A stretch of 64,000 bases of DNA from IMG/VR virus record IMGVR_UViG_3300020182_000008, positions 62,001 to 126,000 of that record. One strand, written 5' to 3'. Shown in pieces: positions 2,684 through 46,172 of the stretch. The position numbers and the translations under genes were made by a program. Within the stretch, counting starts at the first letter, position 1. Every line of letters begins with the position of its first letter. The notes under the pieces are model-generated. The model was not told the origin of the DNA, searched no databases, and saw only the letters and a list, made by a program, of their open reading frames with translations. The stretch is from a virus.

Positions 2684-3210
2684 TCCCTTTATTTGCTATT
2701 AATACTTTTAAATTTAGATTAAATACCAGTTATTTTGCTAGATTAATTGATGGTTTATATAAATTAAAGCAAAATGATAAAGAAGGGCGTGAAGTAAGTA
2801 ATCAAGGTGGTTGGCAATCTAATGATATAACAAATAGTGAATTATTTAACTCATTATTACCTTTTTTAAATAAAAAAATATCCAAATTTTTTAAAGAAGA
2901 ATATAAAGTAGAAGAAGTATGGGCAAATATTTCACCTAAATATTCTTATAATTCAATTCATACCCATTCTTTTATAGGAATGGGAAACTTTCCATATAAC
3001 CAACTCTCGGGAGTAATGTATTTGCAATGTACTAAGGATAGTGGAGATTTAAATTTATATAACCCTCATTTTGTTGGTAGTGTATTTAATTATTCTCCTA
3101 AAGTAGGAGATGTGATATTGTTTCCTAGTACACTCCCTCATTCTGTAGGGAGAAATAATACTGATGTGGATAGAATTTCTATAGCTTTTAATTCAAATAG
3201 AATTGAATAA
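2674..3210 (+). CDS. 2-oxoglutarate/Fe(II) oxygenase (phage PF13759/TIGR02466-like)
   Basis: 178 aa from a TTG at 2674. That start gives MEVIPLFAINTF, the usual N-terminus of this family, and overlaps the upstream gene by only 10 nt. An ATG at 2632 would add 14 residues inside the upstream gene. The body shows iron-binding H96-T-H98, the strand SGVMYLQ with SGDLNLYNP, then VGDVILFPSTLPHSV (distal H156) and R167 in DRISIAFNS for 2-oxoglutarate. This is a complete catalytic set. Substrate unknown; in marine phages such enzymes are numerous and mostly uncharacterised. It is followed directly by a DXD glycosyltransferase. Confidence 0.75.
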   Translation: MEVIPLFAINTFKFRLNTSYFARLIDGLYKLKQNDKEGREVSNQGGWQSNDITNSELFNSLLPFLNKKISKFFKEEYKVEEVWANISPKYSYNSIHTHSFIGMGNFPYNQLSGVMYLQCTKDSGDLNLYNPHFVGSVFNYSPKVGDVILFPSTLPHSVGRNNTDVDRISIAFNSNRIE

Positions 3211-3852
3211 ATGAATATACATTTAATAGCTCCTAAAGATAAAAATAAATGGAACCCAATATGGCATCATTGTTATAAAATTTTTAATTCATCTCCATAC
3301 ACAATAAAATTATGGCACGATGAAGAAATTGATAAAGAACTAAACAATGATGACCCAGATTTTTTTAATATATTAAATAAATGTCCTAACATATATAAAT
3401 GGGATTATTTTCGTTATCTATTATTAGAGAAATATGGGGGAGCTTACTTTGATATGGATATAGAAGTCAAAAGAGACTTTTTTTCACTATTAGATTCTAA
3501 TAAAATATATTTAGCAGGGGGATATTGTTCAAGTGGAGTAGAACCCTCAATCATGATTGCAAACCGAAACCAATTTACTTCTACCTTTTTTTATTCATTA
3601 AAATTATTTATTCAAGATAGAGTAATGAAGGAAGATGTATATCCCAATACTTGGGTAAATGTAGTTTGGAAAACTGGTCCTTGGGCTTTATCTTTTTATT
3701 TAAACCATTGGATAATGAATAATACCGATAAAAATATTGACATTTTACCATACGATTTATTTTCAAAACAAGAACACAGTTTATCTTATAGTGTACATCA
3801 TTTTACTAATGAATGGCATGAAGGTGAATCAATTAAATCACCTAGTATATAA
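3211..3852 (+). CDS. DXD-type glycosyltransferase (Gly_transf_sug / capsular-polysaccharide type)
   Basis: 213 aa. The hallmark KWDYFRYLLLEKYGGAYFD motif with D81-M-D83 is the nucleotide-sugar/metal site of the PF04488 group (GT-A fold, as in TcdA/TcdB-like and Och1-like enzymes). The N-terminal WNPIWHHCYKIF replaces the usual IPKxIHxxW. Downstream NxxW-TGPWALS and DILPYDLFSKQEH match the acceptor part. Likely transfers a sugar to a protein, DNA or glycan acceptor; acceptor unknown. It sits between two oxygenase genes with single-base junctions, suggesting hydroxylation followed by glycosylation (inference). Confidence 0.8.
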   Translation: MNIHLIAPKDKNKWNPIWHHCYKIFNSSPYTIKLWHDEEIDKELNNDDPDFFNILNKCPNIYKWDYFRYLLLEKYGGAYFDMDIEVKRDFFSLLDSNKIYLAGGYCSSGVEPSIMIANRNQFTSTFFYSLKLFIQDRVMKEDVYPNTWVNVVWKTGPWALSFYLNHWIMNNTDKNIDILPYDLFSKQEHSLSYSVHHFTNEWHEGESIKSPSI

Positions 3853-11812: not shown

Positions 11813-12172
11813 ATGGATTTTTCGCAAGTAAATTTATTTGGAAAGAAAAGTTTCTCTGATTTATTAAAAGAGATACATACTAATCAAAAGGATAAAGAAG
11901 TTCAATTACGTTCGTTAATTGAAGGACTAAAACCATTAATCACCGATCCAGGTGAGGCAACAATGATTGTTCCATTAATTAAGGAATATATGGAATTAGC
12001 CATCAAAAACGATGATGCCCTAATTAAAATGGCAGGTATCGTTCAACGTGCTATGAATAGTAAGATGGCTGATACAGACGAGATACTTTCAGATGAAGAC
12101 AAAGAGATGTTATTTAGCTCTCTCCAAGAATTAGATAAAAAAGTAGAAGAAATAAAGGTAGAGGATGAGTAA
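11813..12172 (+). CDS. helical hypothetical protein, first gene of tail module
   Basis: 119 aa, MDFSQVNLFGKKSFSDLLKE at the start, all-helical with an acidic C-terminus (KVEEIKVEDE). Preceded by a late box and overlapping the spike gene by 8 nt, so it is expressed with tail genes; a baseplate assembly chaperone or tail component would fit the context. No sequence family recognised. Confidence 0.55.
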   Translation: MDFSQVNLFGKKSFSDLLKEIHTNQKDKEVQLRSLIEGLKPLITDPGEATMIVPLIKEYMELAIKNDDALIKMAGIVQRAMNSKMADTDEILSDEDKEMLFSSLQELDKKVEEIKVEDE

Positions 12173-13166
12173 AAATTTTCCTACTTTAGGGAACTCCGCT
12201 ATTGCATCAAAAACACCCTCACTATCTAAAACGGATAGTAACAAATTATTTTTTGCTAGGGTAATTGATGTTAATATCGAACCATCTAGTGATGGTCAAT
12301 CTATCTTTCAAACATCTGGAGGATGGTCGGCTATTGGGTGTATCAAATTTGAAACACTTAACCGCTCATCCAATCAACCCGGAAATATTTTTCCACAAGG
12401 TAATATAGCTATACCTTTAGATAACAACATTAAAAAAATCCCTGCTTTAAACGAGATTGTTCTTATACATCCTGGTCCTTCACCTAAAGAACTTCAAGCA
12501 GGAGACAACGATACAGTTCAATATTTTTATTCTACAACTACAGTTTGGAATAGAAGTCATTTGAATATGCTCCCTTCACCTAACAGTTCAGCTACACAAA
12601 CTAAAAATAATATAGATGTGCAAGCTGTAAGTTTAGGTATAGAAAATACAGAAGAACAAGTAGTAGTAGAACCATCCCCAGGTAAAACCTTTATAGAAAA
12701 ATCTACAATACGTAATTTATATCCTGTAGAAGGTGATGTTTTAATAGAAGGACGTTTTGGGAATTCACTTCGTTTTTCTTCTACAGCTAAAGTATCGGGA
12801 AGTGATACTCAAAGCCCATGGAGTGAAGAAGGTTCAGATGGCAAACCAATTACTATATTAAGAAATGGACAAGGTTCAGAAGATGCATTTAATAATTGGT
12901 TTCCTATATATGAGGATATACAAGCTGATAATTCATCAATTTACCTTACCTCAGGACAAACCATACCTGTTGCACTAGCTTCAACAAATTTTGCGTCTTT
13001 TGGTGTAGATGCTACACCTATTGCTAATACTACGAAGTTAATTCAAGAAGTACAAGTAAATGGTCCAACAGTATCACCTAAAGAAGCAGATTCTACAGGT
13101 AGTGTTTCGGATATTATCAACCAAGAACCAGATTTATCAACAGAAAATACAGGATCAAATGGCTGA
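12165..13166 (+). CDS. putative baseplate hub/spike protein (gp5-like OB-fold region)
   Basis: 333 aa. Residues about 25-120 look like a beta-barrel (FFARVIDVNIEPSSDG, GCIKFETLNR, IPALNEIVLIHPGP), comparable with the OB-fold of gp5/VgrG proteins. Around 195-235 comes PVEGDVLIEGRFGNSLRF, then GSDGKPITILRNGQG, a pattern I associate with the gp5-like proteins of marine T4-like phages. No lysozyme domain is visible, unlike T4 gp5. The Ser/Thr-rich C-terminus overlaps the following beta-helix gene by 8 nt. Confidence 0.5.
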   Translation: MSKNFPTLGNSAIASKTPSLSKTDSNKLFFARVIDVNIEPSSDGQSIFQTSGGWSAIGCIKFETLNRSSNQPGNIFPQGNIAIPLDNNIKKIPALNEIVLIHPGPSPKELQAGDNDTVQYFYSTTTVWNRSHLNMLPSPNSSATQTKNNIDVQAVSLGIENTEEQVVVEPSPGKTFIEKSTIRNLYPVEGDVLIEGRFGNSLRFSSTAKVSGSDTQSPWSEEGSDGKPITILRNGQGSEDAFNNWFPIYEDIQADNSSIYLTSGQTIPVALASTNFASFGVDATPIANTTKLIQEVQVNGPTVSPKEADSTGSVSDIINQEPDLSTENTGSNG

Positions 13167-13596
13167 AGAAAAGAAAAAAAAATACCAACCCGAATTTCCG
13201 TATAGAGGTAACCAAATTATTATAGATTCTGATAGAGTTTTACTTAATTCTAAGGAAGATTCAACATTTATTGTAGGAAAAAAAGCAGTGGGCATATCTT
13301 CTGGTGGAACTATTAACTTAGATAGCGATGATAAATGTATAATTAATTCACCTGAAATAAGATTAGGCTTAGATGCATCACATCCTTTAGTATATGGTGA
13401 TGAATTAGCAAATCTATTAAATCAATTTTGTGTTATAATGACCGAAACTGTAGTTCCTGATATGAAGGATGCTGTTGATAGTAATGGAACAAAAGTAACT
13501 GGGGTAGCTACAGCAGCTATAGGAATGGAAAAAGCAATTAAAGGTTTAAATGATGGTTTATCAAAAATATTATCAACCACAAACTTTACTAGATAA
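13159..13596 (+). CDS. putative spike-tip / beta-helix protein (gp5 C-terminal-like)
   Basis: 145 aa from the ATG at 13159, which overlaps the upstream gene by 8 nt; a start at 13060 would overlap by more than 100 nt. After a lysine-rich start, residues 15-75 show short repeated strands (NQIIIDSDRVLLNSKED, FIVGKKAVGIS, GTINLDSDD, CIINSPEIRLG) typical of the triple-stranded beta-helix in gp5/VgrG spikes. It ends with a helix (VYGDELANLLNQF). This suggests the gp5 functions are split between two genes. Confidence 0.55.
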   Translation: MAEEKKKKYQPEFPYRGNQIIIDSDRVLLNSKEDSTFIVGKKAVGISSGGTINLDSDDKCIINSPEIRLGLDASHPLVYGDELANLLNQFCVIMTETVVPDMKDAVDSNGTKVTGVATAAIGMEKAIKGLNDGLSKILSTTNFTR

Positions 13597-40067: not shown

Positions 40068-41030
40068 ATGGACAAGCTAAAACTCAGATACTTAATCCGA
40101 GAGGCTATAGAAAACGTTGTTGGAGTTTCAGCAAAATTCTCTATAGGGGATAAAGTAACTACGGTAGATGGAGACACTGCTACTGTTACAATGGCAGAAC
40201 ATCCGTTCTACACTGTAGAGTTAGAGGAGACTGGAACAACTAAATCGTTTAACTTTAAAGATTTAGCTCCATTCCAAGAAAAAGAAATATCTAAAACATC
40301 AGAAGGCATTATGCTCCAAGAAGGCGCGATTGCCTCTCCTGGTTTAATGTTCCATCAACAACACAAAAAACCACTATCAGAGTGTATTTTTAGAATAGGT
40401 TCAGAAGCATACGTAGACTTCTATGCCGAAGCAAGAGAATTATTCAACGAAGGCGTTCTAAAAGTAAACGAACTTGATAGAGATTTAATTCGCAACACTG
40501 ACATAGGCGAATATGGAATATTTGAAGGCAAAAAAATTGCTTTAGATATTCCTTTTATTAATGAAAGAGAAGATGCCTTAGGTATTTACGATGATGGTAG
40601 AGGAAATTCCGCTGCAATTGGATGGACACCTGATGGGTATCTAGCTACAGTAGATGGTGAATACGATTTTCAAATCGGACCTGCTAAAACAGTAGAAGAG
40701 CTAATTAAGATGTTAGCTGATGAAGGTTTTACAAATAAAATATTTGAAGCCGAATTTAAAGGTAAAGACGTTCCACTAAACAAACCAAAACGTGGTGGTT
40801 CAAAAGCATACTATGTTTACGTTAAAGACGGGGACAAAGTTAAAAAAGTATCATTCGGGTCTGGTGGCCTAAGAGCAAAAATTAACAACCCAGAAGCACG
40901 TAGAGCTTTTGCGGCACGACACAATTGCGACAAAAAGAAAGATAGAACAAAAGCAGGTTATTGGTCATGCAATTTACCACGTTACGCGAAGGCCCTAGGA
41001 TTAGGTGCTAACAAAAACACATTTTGGTAG
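40068..41030 (+). CDS. tagged protein with DUF5872-like C-terminal domain (320 aa)
   Basis: Leader MDKLKLRYLIREAIENVVG, then an SH3-like stretch (SIGDKVTTVDGDTATVTM, 25-65), a middle domain (about 120-240) and a C-terminal basic domain from about 245. The latter has YYVYVKDGDKVKKVSFGSGG, then EARRAFAARHNCDKKKDRT and YWSCNLPRYAKALGL, matching DUF5872-type domains common in marine phages. The domain is cysteine- and lysine-rich and may bind DNA. LIRE|A fits a T4 prohead protease site. Confidence 0.65.
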   Translation: MDKLKLRYLIREAIENVVGVSAKFSIGDKVTTVDGDTATVTMAEHPFYTVELEETGTTKSFNFKDLAPFQEKEISKTSEGIMLQEGAIASPGLMFHQQHKKPLSECIFRIGSEAYVDFYAEARELFNEGVLKVNELDRDLIRNTDIGEYGIFEGKKIALDIPFINEREDALGIYDDGRGNSAAIGWTPDGYLATVDGEYDFQIGPAKTVEELIKMLADEGFTNKIFEAEFKGKDVPLNKPKRGGSKAYYVYVKDGDKVKKVSFGSGGLRAKINNPEARRAFAARHNCDKKKDRTKAGYWSCNLPRYAKALGLGANKNTFW

Positions 41031-41749: not shown

Positions 41750-41876
41750 GTTAATCATTATATTTAGTTTTTCAGTAGCCGCAGTAGGTTACTTAGTTGT
41801 ATCTACAAGAAATAAAATAAAACAGCCAGGATGCTGTGGACAAAATTGTAATTGCCATGAAAATAAGTCAAGTTAA
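41742..41876 (+). CDS. 44-aa membrane peptide with Cys-rich tail (FeoB-associated-like)
   Basis: ATG overlaps the cupin gene end by 8 nt; TAA at 41874-41876. One N-terminal membrane helix (MLELIIIFSFSVAAVGYLVV), then STRNKIKQPGCCGQNCNCHE with four cysteines. This is the layout of FeoB-associated Cys-rich membrane proteins (PF12669). Could bind iron or zinc at the inner membrane. Its own 3' end overlaps the next gene's start by 20 nt. Confidence 0.5.
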   Translation: MLELIIIFSFSVAAVGYLVVSTRNKIKQPGCCGQNCNCHENKSS

Positions 41877-42666
41877 AGAAGTACTTAATTCAATATTTGA
41901 AGAGGACGAAAGTCTAAAATACGCTTTAGCTACTAACCTAGCTAAATATGGTCGTCCTCAATCTAAAAAATCAGATCAACCTTCTAAACTAACTAAAGGT
42001 TTAGAGAAGGGTAGAGAAAAATACGTTAAAGATTTAAAGAAATCTATGTCTGAATTAGATGATAGTGGTTTAAGCAAAGGATATCTTGAAGCTAGAAAAC
42101 TTATTGATAATTTAAGAGCAACTACATTCAGAAAACTAAATGACGACGAATTAGAAGAGTTTAGAAAAACAATTGCGGATGCGTTTGATTTTGATTTAAA
42201 AGAAGGTTTAAGTGAAGATAAGGCAGATGCTACGAGATGGTTTAGTAATCTAAAATATTTCTATCAAAAAGCATTTAGAGAGTTAAAAGGTGAAGATAGA
42301 GAAACGTACAAACAGTTAGCTAAAGATTTCTTTTCTAAATTAGAAATAGACGATAAAGTACGTCCTGTAGGCTTAGACGAAGACGAAGGCACATTAAATA
42401 AAATAGCAGATATGCTATCTCGTAAATTTGACGATTTACGTTTTGATGTAAACACAATGGCTGATCGTATTGATGTTCGTGGCTCACAACAAGATTTAAT
42501 GAATTTTGGAACTGAATTATCGGGTAAAAAAATATTCGACTATGAAGTGTTCCATACAGATGATGACGATAGAGGAGAAATAGTTCGCATTGTTAAATCA
42601 GATTCTATATCTAGAGGTGGTGTAAACGAAGAAGAAAAAAAAAAGCTGACCGCTGCCTTAGAATAG
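41857..42666 (+). CDS. tagged helical protein, 0-frame product (269 aa)
   Basis: From the ATG at 41857, leader MKISQVKEVLNSIFEEDESL; a start at 41836 would add seven residues with no leader logic. Lys-rich helical region 25-130, a domain with DATRWFSNLKYFYQKAFREL (about 125-160), then an alpha/beta part with MADRIDVRGSQQDLMNFGT and EIVRIVKSDSISRGG. The 0-frame ends shortly after a ten-A run with KLTAALE. A -1 shift there would append a conserved basic domain (see 42639 and 42645). Function unknown; internal head protein suspected. Confidence 0.6.
   Translation: MKISQVKEVLNSIFEEDESLKYALATNLAKYGRPQSKKSDQPSKLTKGLEKGREKYVKDLKKSMSELDDSGLSKGYLEARKLIDNLRATTFRKLNDDELEEFRKTIADAFDFDLKEGLSEDKADATRWFSNLKYFYQKAFRELKGEDRETYKQLAKDFFSKLEIDDKVRPVGLDEDEGTLNKIADMLSRKFDDLRFDVNTMADRIDVRGSQQDLMNFGTELSGKKIFDYEVFHTDDDDRGEIVRIVKSDSISRGGVNEEEKKKLTAALE
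42639..42645 (+). promoter_or_regulatory. putative -1 ribosomal frameshift heptamer A AAA AAG
   Basis: In frame 0 the codons are AAA-AAA-AAG (42637-42645) within an A10 run (42635-42644). The heptamer at 42639-42645 is the same as the slippery sequence of E. coli dnaX. Slipping back one base continues into a 36-codon frame coding a conserved domain. An assembly or sequencing indel in the A-run would give the same picture. Confidence 0.5.
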
Positions 42667-42755
42667 CACGTAGAAAAATGCCACAATCATCTGCTTATCG
42701 TTCTGGATTGATCGTAAAATGTAGAAAAGGAATGATATGGAAAAAGGAGAAATAA
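42645..42755 (+). CDS. -1 frame extension: basic SAYxSG/VKCRK domain
   Basis: Reading from GCT at 42645 in the -1 frame gives ADRCLRIARRKMPQSSAYRSG, then LIVKCRKGMIWKKEK and TAA at 42753-42755. The pattern DxC...R.....SAYxSGxxVKCRK is a recurrent C-terminal domain in T4-like marine phage proteins. There is no start codon before its conserved DRC part (only an ATG at 42678 inside it), so it is most simply expressed as a fusion with the gene at 41857, giving about 299 aa. Overlaps the next gene by 19 nt. Confidence 0.55.
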   Translation, partial: ADRCLRIARRKMPQSSAYRSGLIVKCRKGMIWKKEK

Positions 42756-43009
42756 AAAAATTAATTCGAGAAGTCCTATTAAGCGAGAAAGAAACCTTAC
42801 GTACTTGGTTTTCTCGTAAAGGGTCGCCTGGTAAAAAAGGTGGTTGGGTTGATTGTAATTCTCCAATCCGTAAAGACGGCAAAATCACAGGTTACAAACC
42901 TTGTGGAAGACAAAAAGGCGAAAAACGAGCAAAATACCCATCTTGTAGACCTACACCAGCGGGGTGTAAAGACAAAGGTAAAGGTAAATCATGGGGAAAA
43001 AAGAAATGA
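42737..43009 (+). CDS. tagged small basic protein, DUF6321-like (90 aa)
   Basis: Leader MEKGEIKKLIREVLLSEKE, followed by LRTWFSRKGSPGKKGGWVDC, SPIRKDGKITGYKPCGRQKG and YPSCRPTPAGCKDKGKGKS. This is the Gly/Lys/Cys-rich DUF6321-type domain, known from phage and some cellular proteins, function unknown. Four cysteines may bind zinc; the high charge suggests DNA binding. Overlaps the lipoprotein gene by four bases. Confidence 0.7.
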   Translation: MEKGEIKKLIREVLLSEKETLRTWFSRKGSPGKKGGWVDCNSPIRKDGKITGYKPCGRQKGEKRAKYPSCRPTPAGCKDKGKGKSWGKKK

Positions 43010-43554: not shown

Positions 43555-44568
43555 ATGGATAACTTCAACTTAAAAATTTTCATCAACGAAAATAACCTTG
43601 GTGCTTATTCTAAACTAGAAGGCCAAAAACGCGACATTGATGGAGACGGAGATATAGATTCAGACGATTACAGGGCTGCAAAAGATGCTGCTATTAAAAA
43701 AGCAACTGGTAAAACCGAAGCCATCGCTGACCCAGATTCACTTACCTCAATCATTATGGGAGGTTTAGCCGCGGTTGGTGCTGTTAAAGCATTACCTAAA
43801 CTAGTTGATCTATTAGGAGACGAGACTGGAGATATCACTGTCGATAGCTTAAAAAAAGCATTGTCTAAAAAAGATACAAACGAGGCATCTAAAGAAGAAG
43901 AAGAAACATTCCATAAAAAATTAGATACTTTAGTTCACAAAACATTTGGTCCAAGCAGTGATGAAAAGGACATGAAAGAAGATAGATTTGTAGCTTCATC
44001 TATGGAAGATCTAGAGCAAGTAATCAGAAATCTAGCCCATACTGCTAACATATCAGAAGACGAAGCATTAGAAATGGCTATTAAAAAGCTAGAAAATATG
44101 CTAGATGGTAGAGATGATATGGATGAAGATTTAGACGTAGGACATCAGGATGATGAACCAAACATGTTAAAGAAAAAAATGTATAGAGCAGCTAAAATGG
44201 CAGCTATGTTATACAAAGAACTAGACAAATTTGATTCATTACCTAACGAAGTTGACTTCCCAGATTGGTGGCAAGCTAAATTAACCAAAGCAGCTGACTA
44301 TTTAAACTCAGCATTCGATTATCTAGATGGCGAACAACAAACAGCTAAGCTAGATGCTATGGGTGAAGAAGTAGAGGAAATGAAAAACCCAGGATATTCT
44401 TCATCTAGCCAGAAAAACCAATATGCTAACAGAGTATCTAGACCAACTAAATTTGGTAATGCTCCTGAATTAGATAAAGAATTAGGAGATACAGCTCAAA
44501 GAGCAATGGATATTCTAAAAAGAAAAGGATTAGCTGAAGACAACATCAAACTCTCAGACGCACTTTAA
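43555..44568 (+). CDS. tagged structural protein with EF-hand/dockerin-like loop (337 aa)
   Basis: Leader MDNFNLKIFINENNLGAYSK, then a calcium-loop sequence RDIDGDGDIDSDDYRAAKDA (28-45) fitting DxDxDGxIxxxD. A hydrophobic segment SIIMGGLAAVGAVKALPKLV (about 65-85) and several acidic helical regions follow. The C-terminus has KKKMYRAAKMAAMLYKELDK and FPDWWQAKLTKAADYLNSAF, a conserved module of T4-like marine phage proteins. Late box upstream; likely virion-associated. Confidence 0.6.
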   Translation: MDNFNLKIFINENNLGAYSKLEGQKRDIDGDGDIDSDDYRAAKDAAIKKATGKTEAIADPDSLTSIIMGGLAAVGAVKALPKLVDLLGDETGDITVDSLKKALSKKDTNEASKEEEETFHKKLDTLVHKTFGPSSDEKDMKEDRFVASSMEDLEQVIRNLAHTANISEDEALEMAIKKLENMLDGRDDMDEDLDVGHQDDEPNMLKKKMYRAAKMAAMLYKELDKFDSLPNEVDFPDWWQAKLTKAADYLNSAFDYLDGEQQTAKLDAMGEEVEEMKNPGYSSSSQKNQYANRVSRPTKFGNAPELDKELGDTAQRAMDILKRKGLAEDNIKLSDAL

Positions 44569-46172
44569 TGAATAGCAAACAATTAATACAACTTTTAGAG
44601 CAAGAAGTAGAAGACTTCATGCAAACTCAAGCCGAAAAGATCGTTAAATTCGAAGACGATCCTAAGGAATACATTCTACAAAAATATCCTTCACTAAAGG
44701 CTACTCTAGAAGATTTAATGACAAATAGTTTTGACGAGTACATTACTGGAATCTATGTAATGGCTCCTAAACCAACTACATTCAAAATATTACTTCACAA
44801 TGGTCAACATTTTTTCCTTATCTATGCTAGAGATTCTTACATAGCAAAAATACAAGGAAAAAAATATTACCTACTTAACTTAGGTGAAGAAGAATATGCT
44901 ATTAAAGCAATAGCAGATCTACTTACAATGGGTATGCCTCCTGGAGCAAAAGGACCAGAAGGTGAAGAAGAAAATGATACGACAGCAGGCGCAGATGAAA
45001 CACCAGATGAGGCACCAGCTGACGATGCAGGAGGAGACGATGAAGAATTGGCTGAAACTAAAGAGGAAACTAAGGAAGAAAAGCCAAAACGTAAAACTCC
45101 ACTTAAGTTTAAGATTTTAAAAGAGGACATAGAAAAAAAAAAGTCACCTCTTAAATTTAAAATTTTAAAAGAAGCCCTATCTCCCGAGGCTCAACAAGCA
45201 AAAGACATTCTAAAACAAAACTTTGATCTAGAAGATAAAAATTTTCTAGAAATGACATCTACTAGTTTTAAAGTTTTAATGGACAATAGCGAACGTAGAG
45301 ATTTCCTTAAAAAAGCATCTGAACTAGACGATTTTGAATTTGAATTAAAAGGTGCTTCTGTAGGTAGATTAAAATATCAACCTGAAGATCAAGCTAAACC
45401 TATCTTAATTTATGCTAAACCAGCAAATGTTCAAGGTTTAGGTTCAGCAGGTAAACAAAACGAGGATAATTTCATTAGAAATATTAATGAAAAAATAGCA
45501 GAGGCTGGAGGATCAGCAGATATTGATATTGTTGCCCCAAACTCCGAAACATTAACTACTAAAGGTATAACTGAAGTAAGAGATTCTTCAACAGCAGGTG
45601 CTGGTAAAGGAGACAAATCAGATGCTCAATTTTTAGCGGACGGTAAAGTACTCCAAAACATATCTTTAAAACAAGCCGAAGGATTTAGATGGGCTTCTGT
45701 AAAATCGGACCCTGAATTTGCTCCTTTTATTAAAACATTCATTGATAAAGCCTTGGCTGGTAACATAAAGGGTCTTAAATTAGAACGTAATACAGAAGTA
45801 GCAGGAGAAAAATATCTCATGTTTAACGATGAAGGTGAAAGAATCACCTTAGTTGTTATAGATGACTTCCCAGAAGGATTCGAAGAAAGAGTAGTATTTG
45901 GACCTGAAACACCCAAAACAGTAGTAGTAGGTGGTACTTTCAGTAAAGACGATAAAGATTTTAAATTAAATGGTAATAAAATTACTGTTCAAGCTGCTGG
46001 GATCTATAGAACACTAGAAGACATTGAAAAAACAGGACAAGAACCTGTATTTGTTATAGCACAACACGCTAAAATGTCTTATGGTTTAGATTTTAGAATC
46101 TTCCCAGCTAATAAAGCAAAATTAGGTCCTAGATCTAGAGGGGTAAAATTATCATATAACGACGTAGTATAA
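44568..46172 (+). CDS. tagged protein with duplicated PLKFKILKE motif and nuclease-like C-terminus (534 aa)
   Basis: Starts MNSKQLIQLLEQEVEDFMQT. Residues 1-130 form one domain; an acidic linker leads to two copies of PLKFKILKE (about 178-205). The C-terminal 320 residues contain NEDNFIRNINEKIAEAGG, KSDAQFLADGKVLQNISLKQ and RWASVKSDPEFAPFI. The E...D...SxK arrangement resembles a PD-(D/E)XK nuclease core, though this is tentative. Ends just before a strong terminator, so it closes the transcription unit. Confidence 0.5.
   Translation: MNSKQLIQLLEQEVEDFMQTQAEKIVKFEDDPKEYILQKYPSLKATLEDLMTNSFDEYITGIYVMAPKPTTFKILLHNGQHFFLIYARDSYIAKIQGKKYYLLNLGEEEYAIKAIADLLTMGMPPGAKGPEGEEENDTTAGADETPDEAPADDAGGDDEELAETKEETKEEKPKRKTPLKFKILKEDIEKKKSPLKFKILKEALSPEAQQAKDILKQNFDLEDKNFLEMTSTSFKVLMDNSERRDFLKKASELDDFEFELKGASVGRLKYQPEDQAKPILIYAKPANVQGLGSAGKQNEDNFIRNINEKIAEAGGSADIDIVAPNSETLTTKGITEVRDSSTAGAGKGDKSDAQFLADGKVLQNISLKQAEGFRWASVKSDPEFAPFIKTFIDKALAGNIKGLKLERNTEVAGEKYLMFNDEGERITLVVIDDFPEGFEERVVFGPETPKTVVVGGTFSKDDKDFKLNGNKITVQAAGIYRTLEDIEKTGQEPVFVIAQHAKMSYGLDFRIFPANKAKLGPRSRGVKLSYNDVV

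Follow-up and report, generated by a model that had tools for sequence, protein, structure and literature searches.

The closest described systems to the locus analyzed here are the dnaX-type -1 ribosomal frameshift and the tssM1 gene of Citrobacter rodentium. In tssM1, an A11 run lies just before the stop codon that interrupts the gene, and RNA polymerase adds As on this run, so that 20-25% full-length protein is made (PMC4256274). The slippage, its frequency and the need for both protein forms have all been demonstrated experimentally. The dnaX frameshift takes place on the heptamer A_AAA_AAG, and the product in that case is a truncated protein. A third point of reference is Pfam family DUF5872 (PF19197), to which the basic domain described below can be compared, and a fourth is the Immutovirus isolate Flavobacterium phage vB_FspM_immuto, in which this domain (76% identity) is encoded by a separate short gene, immuto26A_187, with its own start and no frame break.

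We analyzed a window of 64,000 nucleotides, belonging to a virus record of 166,268 bases (IMGVR_UViG_3300020182_000008), in which a phage gene is interrupted right after an A10 homopolymer. As in tssM1, a conserved C-terminal domain lies out of frame, a single added A restores it, and there are no frameshift stimulators nearby; in contrast to tssM1, the run is one A shorter and the phage gene is described from its sequence only. The gene shares with dnaX the same heptamer in the same phase, but a shift here would add a domain instead of truncating the protein, and the stem-loop, the well-placed Shine-Dalgarno (SD)-like element and the conservation of the site are all missing.

The virus and its interrupted gene

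Matches to phage families were obtained for terminase, portal and major head protein, and the closest isolate is vB_FspM_immuto, with a portal protein 58% identical over its full length. The host is therefore likely to be of the Bacteroidota type. A scan of GTDB genomes found no relatives, and in the phage collection neither a DNA match nor a protein similar to the upstream part of the interrupted gene turned up. Elsewhere in the window, what is one gene in immuto, immuto26A_155, has its counterpart in two ORFs that overlap each other (12165-13166 and 13060-13596) and match neighboring stretches of it. A TGA inside ATGGCTGA closes the upstream ORF; the downstream protein can begin at this point, and an A9 run follows; judging from this arrangement, we read the pair at 12165-13596 as a gene fission or fusion and not as a frameshift.

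The interrupted gene lies on the plus strand. Its 0-frame ORF (41857-42666) encodes a phage protein of 269 aa containing DRIDVRGSQQDL...TDDDDRGEIVRIVKSD, or of 276 aa if an alternative GTG start at 41836 is used. From the ATG at 41857, this frame ends with the codons GAA GAA GAA AAA AAA AAG CTG ACC GCT GCC TTA GAA TAG, in which the A10 homopolymer (42635-42644, with a G on either side) encodes a lysine linker and marks the frame break, and the stop codon TAG occupies 42664-42666. The heptamer A_AAA_AAG (42639-42645) has the same 0-frame phase here as in dnaX. Read from G42645, the -1 frame encodes the basic domain, ADRCLRIARRKMPQSSAYRSGLIVKCRKGMIWKKEK, in 36 codons and closes with a TAA at 42753-42755, so that the feature as a whole spans 42645-42755. 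A -1 shift at the heptamer would give a product of 299 aa. The split at the A10, the AAA-AAA-AAG codons with a stop downstream, and predicted products of 269 and about 299 aa had all been reported in an earlier note on this DNA, and each was recovered from the sequence. That note had also named 9 or 12 As as the tract lengths that would point to a plain assembly indel; these values are wrong, since it is 8 or 11 As that would join both parts in one frame.

Upstream, the open -1 frame is limited by a stop at 42612-42614, and no ATG, GTG or TTG occurs in this frame between that stop and the domain, confirming the earlier description of 36 codons without a start before the conserved part. The earliest ATG in the -1 frame (42678-42680) lies within the domain, soon after the 0-frame stop; it is a possible re-initiation site, the product of which would drop ADRCLRIARRK. 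We therefore rejected an independent start for the basic domain in the window. The next gene on the same strand (42737-43009, 90 aa), which encodes a GGWVDCN...CGRxKGEKR module, begins before the -1 frame has ended, and the same overlap is found in two homologous loci in which the basic domain is fused to the upstream protein (L007 and L009). In locus L008 (4330-4734), this module, a separate gene in the window, follows the basic domain as a fusion, and the DUF5872 match there covers both.

Relatives of the basic domain

The domain in the window was compared with the C-terminus of its fused relative L004. All 36 residues are identical, and the two coding sequences differ by 10 synonymous and 0 nonsynonymous codon changes, an outcome with a probability of about 4e-7 under neutrality. 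The domain is thus not a chance ORF. The same upstream protein and the domain occur in one uninterrupted frame in five viral contig loci (L004, L005, L007, L009 and L031), and these fused homologues indicate that the basic domain is part of the upstream protein, as had been claimed before. Free-standing copies with their own ATG are found in L008 and in immuto gp187, and many further copies likewise have a start of their own. Independent starts in homologues, which the earlier note had listed as evidence against its proposal, thus do exist in L008 and immuto gp187, though not in the window. A scan for the domain returned 63 distinct frames, one of them that of the window; three are cut off by the edge of a contig, whereas all of the others have a start codon upstream and an open frame. 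Within the collections searched, the broken arrangement was found only in the window phage and in one near-identical contig, IMGVR_UViG_3300020187_000025.

Within the DUF5872 profile, the 36-aa domain aligns to positions 12-40, and 9/9 sampled members match the profile as well (best E 4.9e-5). By itself, the window copy scores 15.2 bits against a gathering cut-off of 27.5, and it differs from the family members in being the tail of another protein behind a frame break; the free-standing copies in L008 and L045 score 28.4 and 28.7 bits. Sequence searches of the PDB gave no convincing match, and the predicted structure of the fused relative L007 (mean pLDDT 60, pTM 0.33) was too poor for a fold search. 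Another protein, encoded at 40068-41030, likewise ends in a basic module that contains Cys (ARRAFAARHNCDKKKDRTKAGYWSC...), with a match to phrog_7595; C-terminal modules of this type give the impression of being exchanged between genes of the cluster.

Beyond the domain itself, the C-terminus varies among relatives: L006 has another tail, L008 stops before the domain, and L010 and L012 continue differently. Furthermore, the window gene is without a segment of about 90 residues that is present in L004 between GGVNE and the lysines. This freedom of the C-terminus in L006, L008, L010 and L012, together with the lineage-specific nature of the break, would be in keeping with a plain loss, in which a fixed indel removed the domain and left a fresh pseudogene remnant with no useful read-through. 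The absence of nonsynonymous changes relative to L004 argues against such a loss, as does the overlap of the domain end with the next gene, retained as in intact relatives; neither argument would settle the matter for a recent break, and we regard plain loss as rather unlikely. The conservation of the domain would mostly reflect the time preceding the break, which could be very recent.

Poly(A) runs and frameshift signals

The earlier note had proposed that the heptamer directs a -1 ribosomal frameshift. Under a programmed frameshift of the dnaX kind, two products would be made in a set ratio, and the heptamer is suited to the task: it has the form X_XXY_YYZ, lies in the right phase, and, given stimulators, ranks with the heptamers most prone to shifting in E. 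coli (PMC4066793). Four stretches downstream of the heptamer, folded without pseudoknots, were no more stable than shuffled sequences (z +0.23 to +1.11), giving no indication of a stimulatory structure. Likewise, no SD-like element is located 6-17 nt before the motif, the distance criterion of Sharma et al. (PMC4066793); the nearest candidate, GGTGG, has its last base at 42620, at a distance of 20 nt from the second base of the motif, which is too far upstream. Finally, the slippery site and the frame transition are conserved in no other relative: where homologues could be compared, the domain is fused or has its own start, and it is not split at A-runs save in the one near-identical contig. 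A conserved programmed -1 frameshift thus fails three tests, those of structure, SD-like element and conservation.

An internal control is provided by a second A10 (45133-45142, plus strand), which has the identical heptamer context, GAA_AAA_AAA_AAG, and lies in frame inside the ORF at 44568-46172. The surrounding gene is intact (534 aa), and its L004 relative is in the same frame at this point. In the whole record, which comprises the window plus loci L023-L028, in-frame A_AAA_AAG occurs 11 times in 175 genes, about the number expected by chance (15.4 in synonymous shuffles). Longer runs are scarcer in genes than the same type of shuffle predicts: 15 runs of at least 8 As were seen against 49.5 expected, 4 of at least 9 against 20, and 2 of at least 10 against 8.1, with 0/100 shuffles as low for each of the three lengths. 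This avoidance of A-runs suggests that slippage or hypermutability is costly.

The linkers of relatives were also inspected. Their EKKK and EKKKK stretches contain A-runs of 7 or fewer, mostly interrupted by AAG, and an A-run longer than 9 was found in 0 of the 49 distinct linker DNAs from relatives. Runs of at least 7 are slightly commoner in linkers (39%) than in other K-rich windows (24%), yet none reaches 10, and we rejected the idea that the family as a whole favors long A-runs at this place.

With open frames at the other loci, no linker run of at least 10 As, and the same heptamer context read in frame at 45133, we consider a programmed frameshift very unlikely. What stands of the earlier proposal is that A_AAA_AAG is slip-prone and in dnaX phase, whereas its programmed use is unsupported; two products are possible, more plausibly through unprogrammed slippage on the A10.

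Assembly accuracy and population variants

Homopolymers are places where assembly errors fall. An erroneous consensus or assembly at the A10 would explain the break, as would a mixed population that is mostly in frame and from which the assembler chose A10. The identical A10 is present in contig IMGVR_UViG_3300020187_000025, which is 100% identical to the window over a shared 23 kb and differs beyond it by a few substitutions and one repeat; with so little divergence, both contigs may derive from one sample series. Exact searches of viral contigs for further population variants returned this one contig besides the window and no more. As a side observation, L023 and L021 (G001) 2800-3560, beyond the window, hold tandem or dispersed repeats, and the two near-identical contigs show lower identity to each other over a repeat stretch there.

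Comparison with the related contig G002 revealed that 1 of 75 compared genes is frame-broken, namely the A10 gene. General assembly noise is thus unlikely, and genome-wide frame errors were rejected as the cause. The same count can be read the other way at the level of the single site, since the A10 gene stands alone, and frame breaks in lone, unclustered genes mostly go back to sequencing errors or indel mutations (PMC3711429). Against a local error speak the recovery of A10 in two contigs that differ by substitutions elsewhere and the assembly in frame of the other A10 of the genome (45133). An error at this site, although conceivable, therefore appears unlikely to us.

The two contigs also bear on selected phase variation, in which the tract length would toggle and part of the phage population would carry the basic domain. 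An unbroken A10 is hypermutable, and in Listeria inlA, variation of a poly(A) tract is about 1000 times as frequent as point mutations are on average (PMC2831843). No length variant separates the two contigs, both of which are A10 (n=2 only), the lysine-rich linkers of relatives keep short tracts, and the phage itself avoids long A-runs overall. We consider selected phase variation extremely unlikely.

Discussion

On balance, we consider it probable that the window comes from a Flavobacterium-phage-like (Immutovirus-related) myovirus in which a lineage-specific one-base break has arisen in a slip-prone poly(A) lysine linker, with some full-length protein probably still made by slippage. The ancestral gene would have consisted of one continuous frame, encoding the upstream domain, a lysine-rich linker and the DUF5872-like basic domain. 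In the lineage of the window, the linker is an unbroken poly(A) tract, one base off frame, and thus, as the sequence shows, standard decoding yields the 269-aa protein without the basic domain. The break may have originated by contraction of the tract, or it may have arisen with the junction of the modules, given that the segment of about 90 residues is gone relative to L004. Within the collections searched, the sequence comparisons show the break to be lineage-specific instead of a programmed frameshift kept across relatives.

Most of the protein made would be the truncated form. At the frame transition, the A10 constitutes a run of 9 or more A/T at which base addition leads into the conserved frame, and the basic domain is entered both when the transcript gains one A and when the ribosome slips by -1 on A_AAA_AAG. 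Because the tract is slip-prone and both events lead into the domain, the full-length protein of 299 aa is probably still produced as a minority, mainly through slippage of RNA polymerase; on A/T runs, transcript insertions dominate and rise exponentially with run length (PMC5574713). The slippage rates quoted here come from enterobacteria and Buchnera, and the host of the window phage is likely to be of the Bacteroidota type. A stronger version of this reading, in which the A10 would be a built-in transcriptional-slippage switch, new in one Immutovirus-like lineage and fixing the ratio of the short form to the form with the domain, is distinctly unlikely in our assessment.

We regard the locus as a slip-prone frame break of an ordinary kind, instructive all the same, for which the precedent has been studied well. 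For annotation, it illustrates that a dnaX-type heptamer beside a frame break is no proof of programming, and that relatives decide. If slippage rescues the gene, it would be a phage case of poly(A)-tract decoding, with two proteins made from one gene; if it does not, the locus would show unbroken A-runs, otherwise strongly avoided in this phage, in the act of breaking genes.
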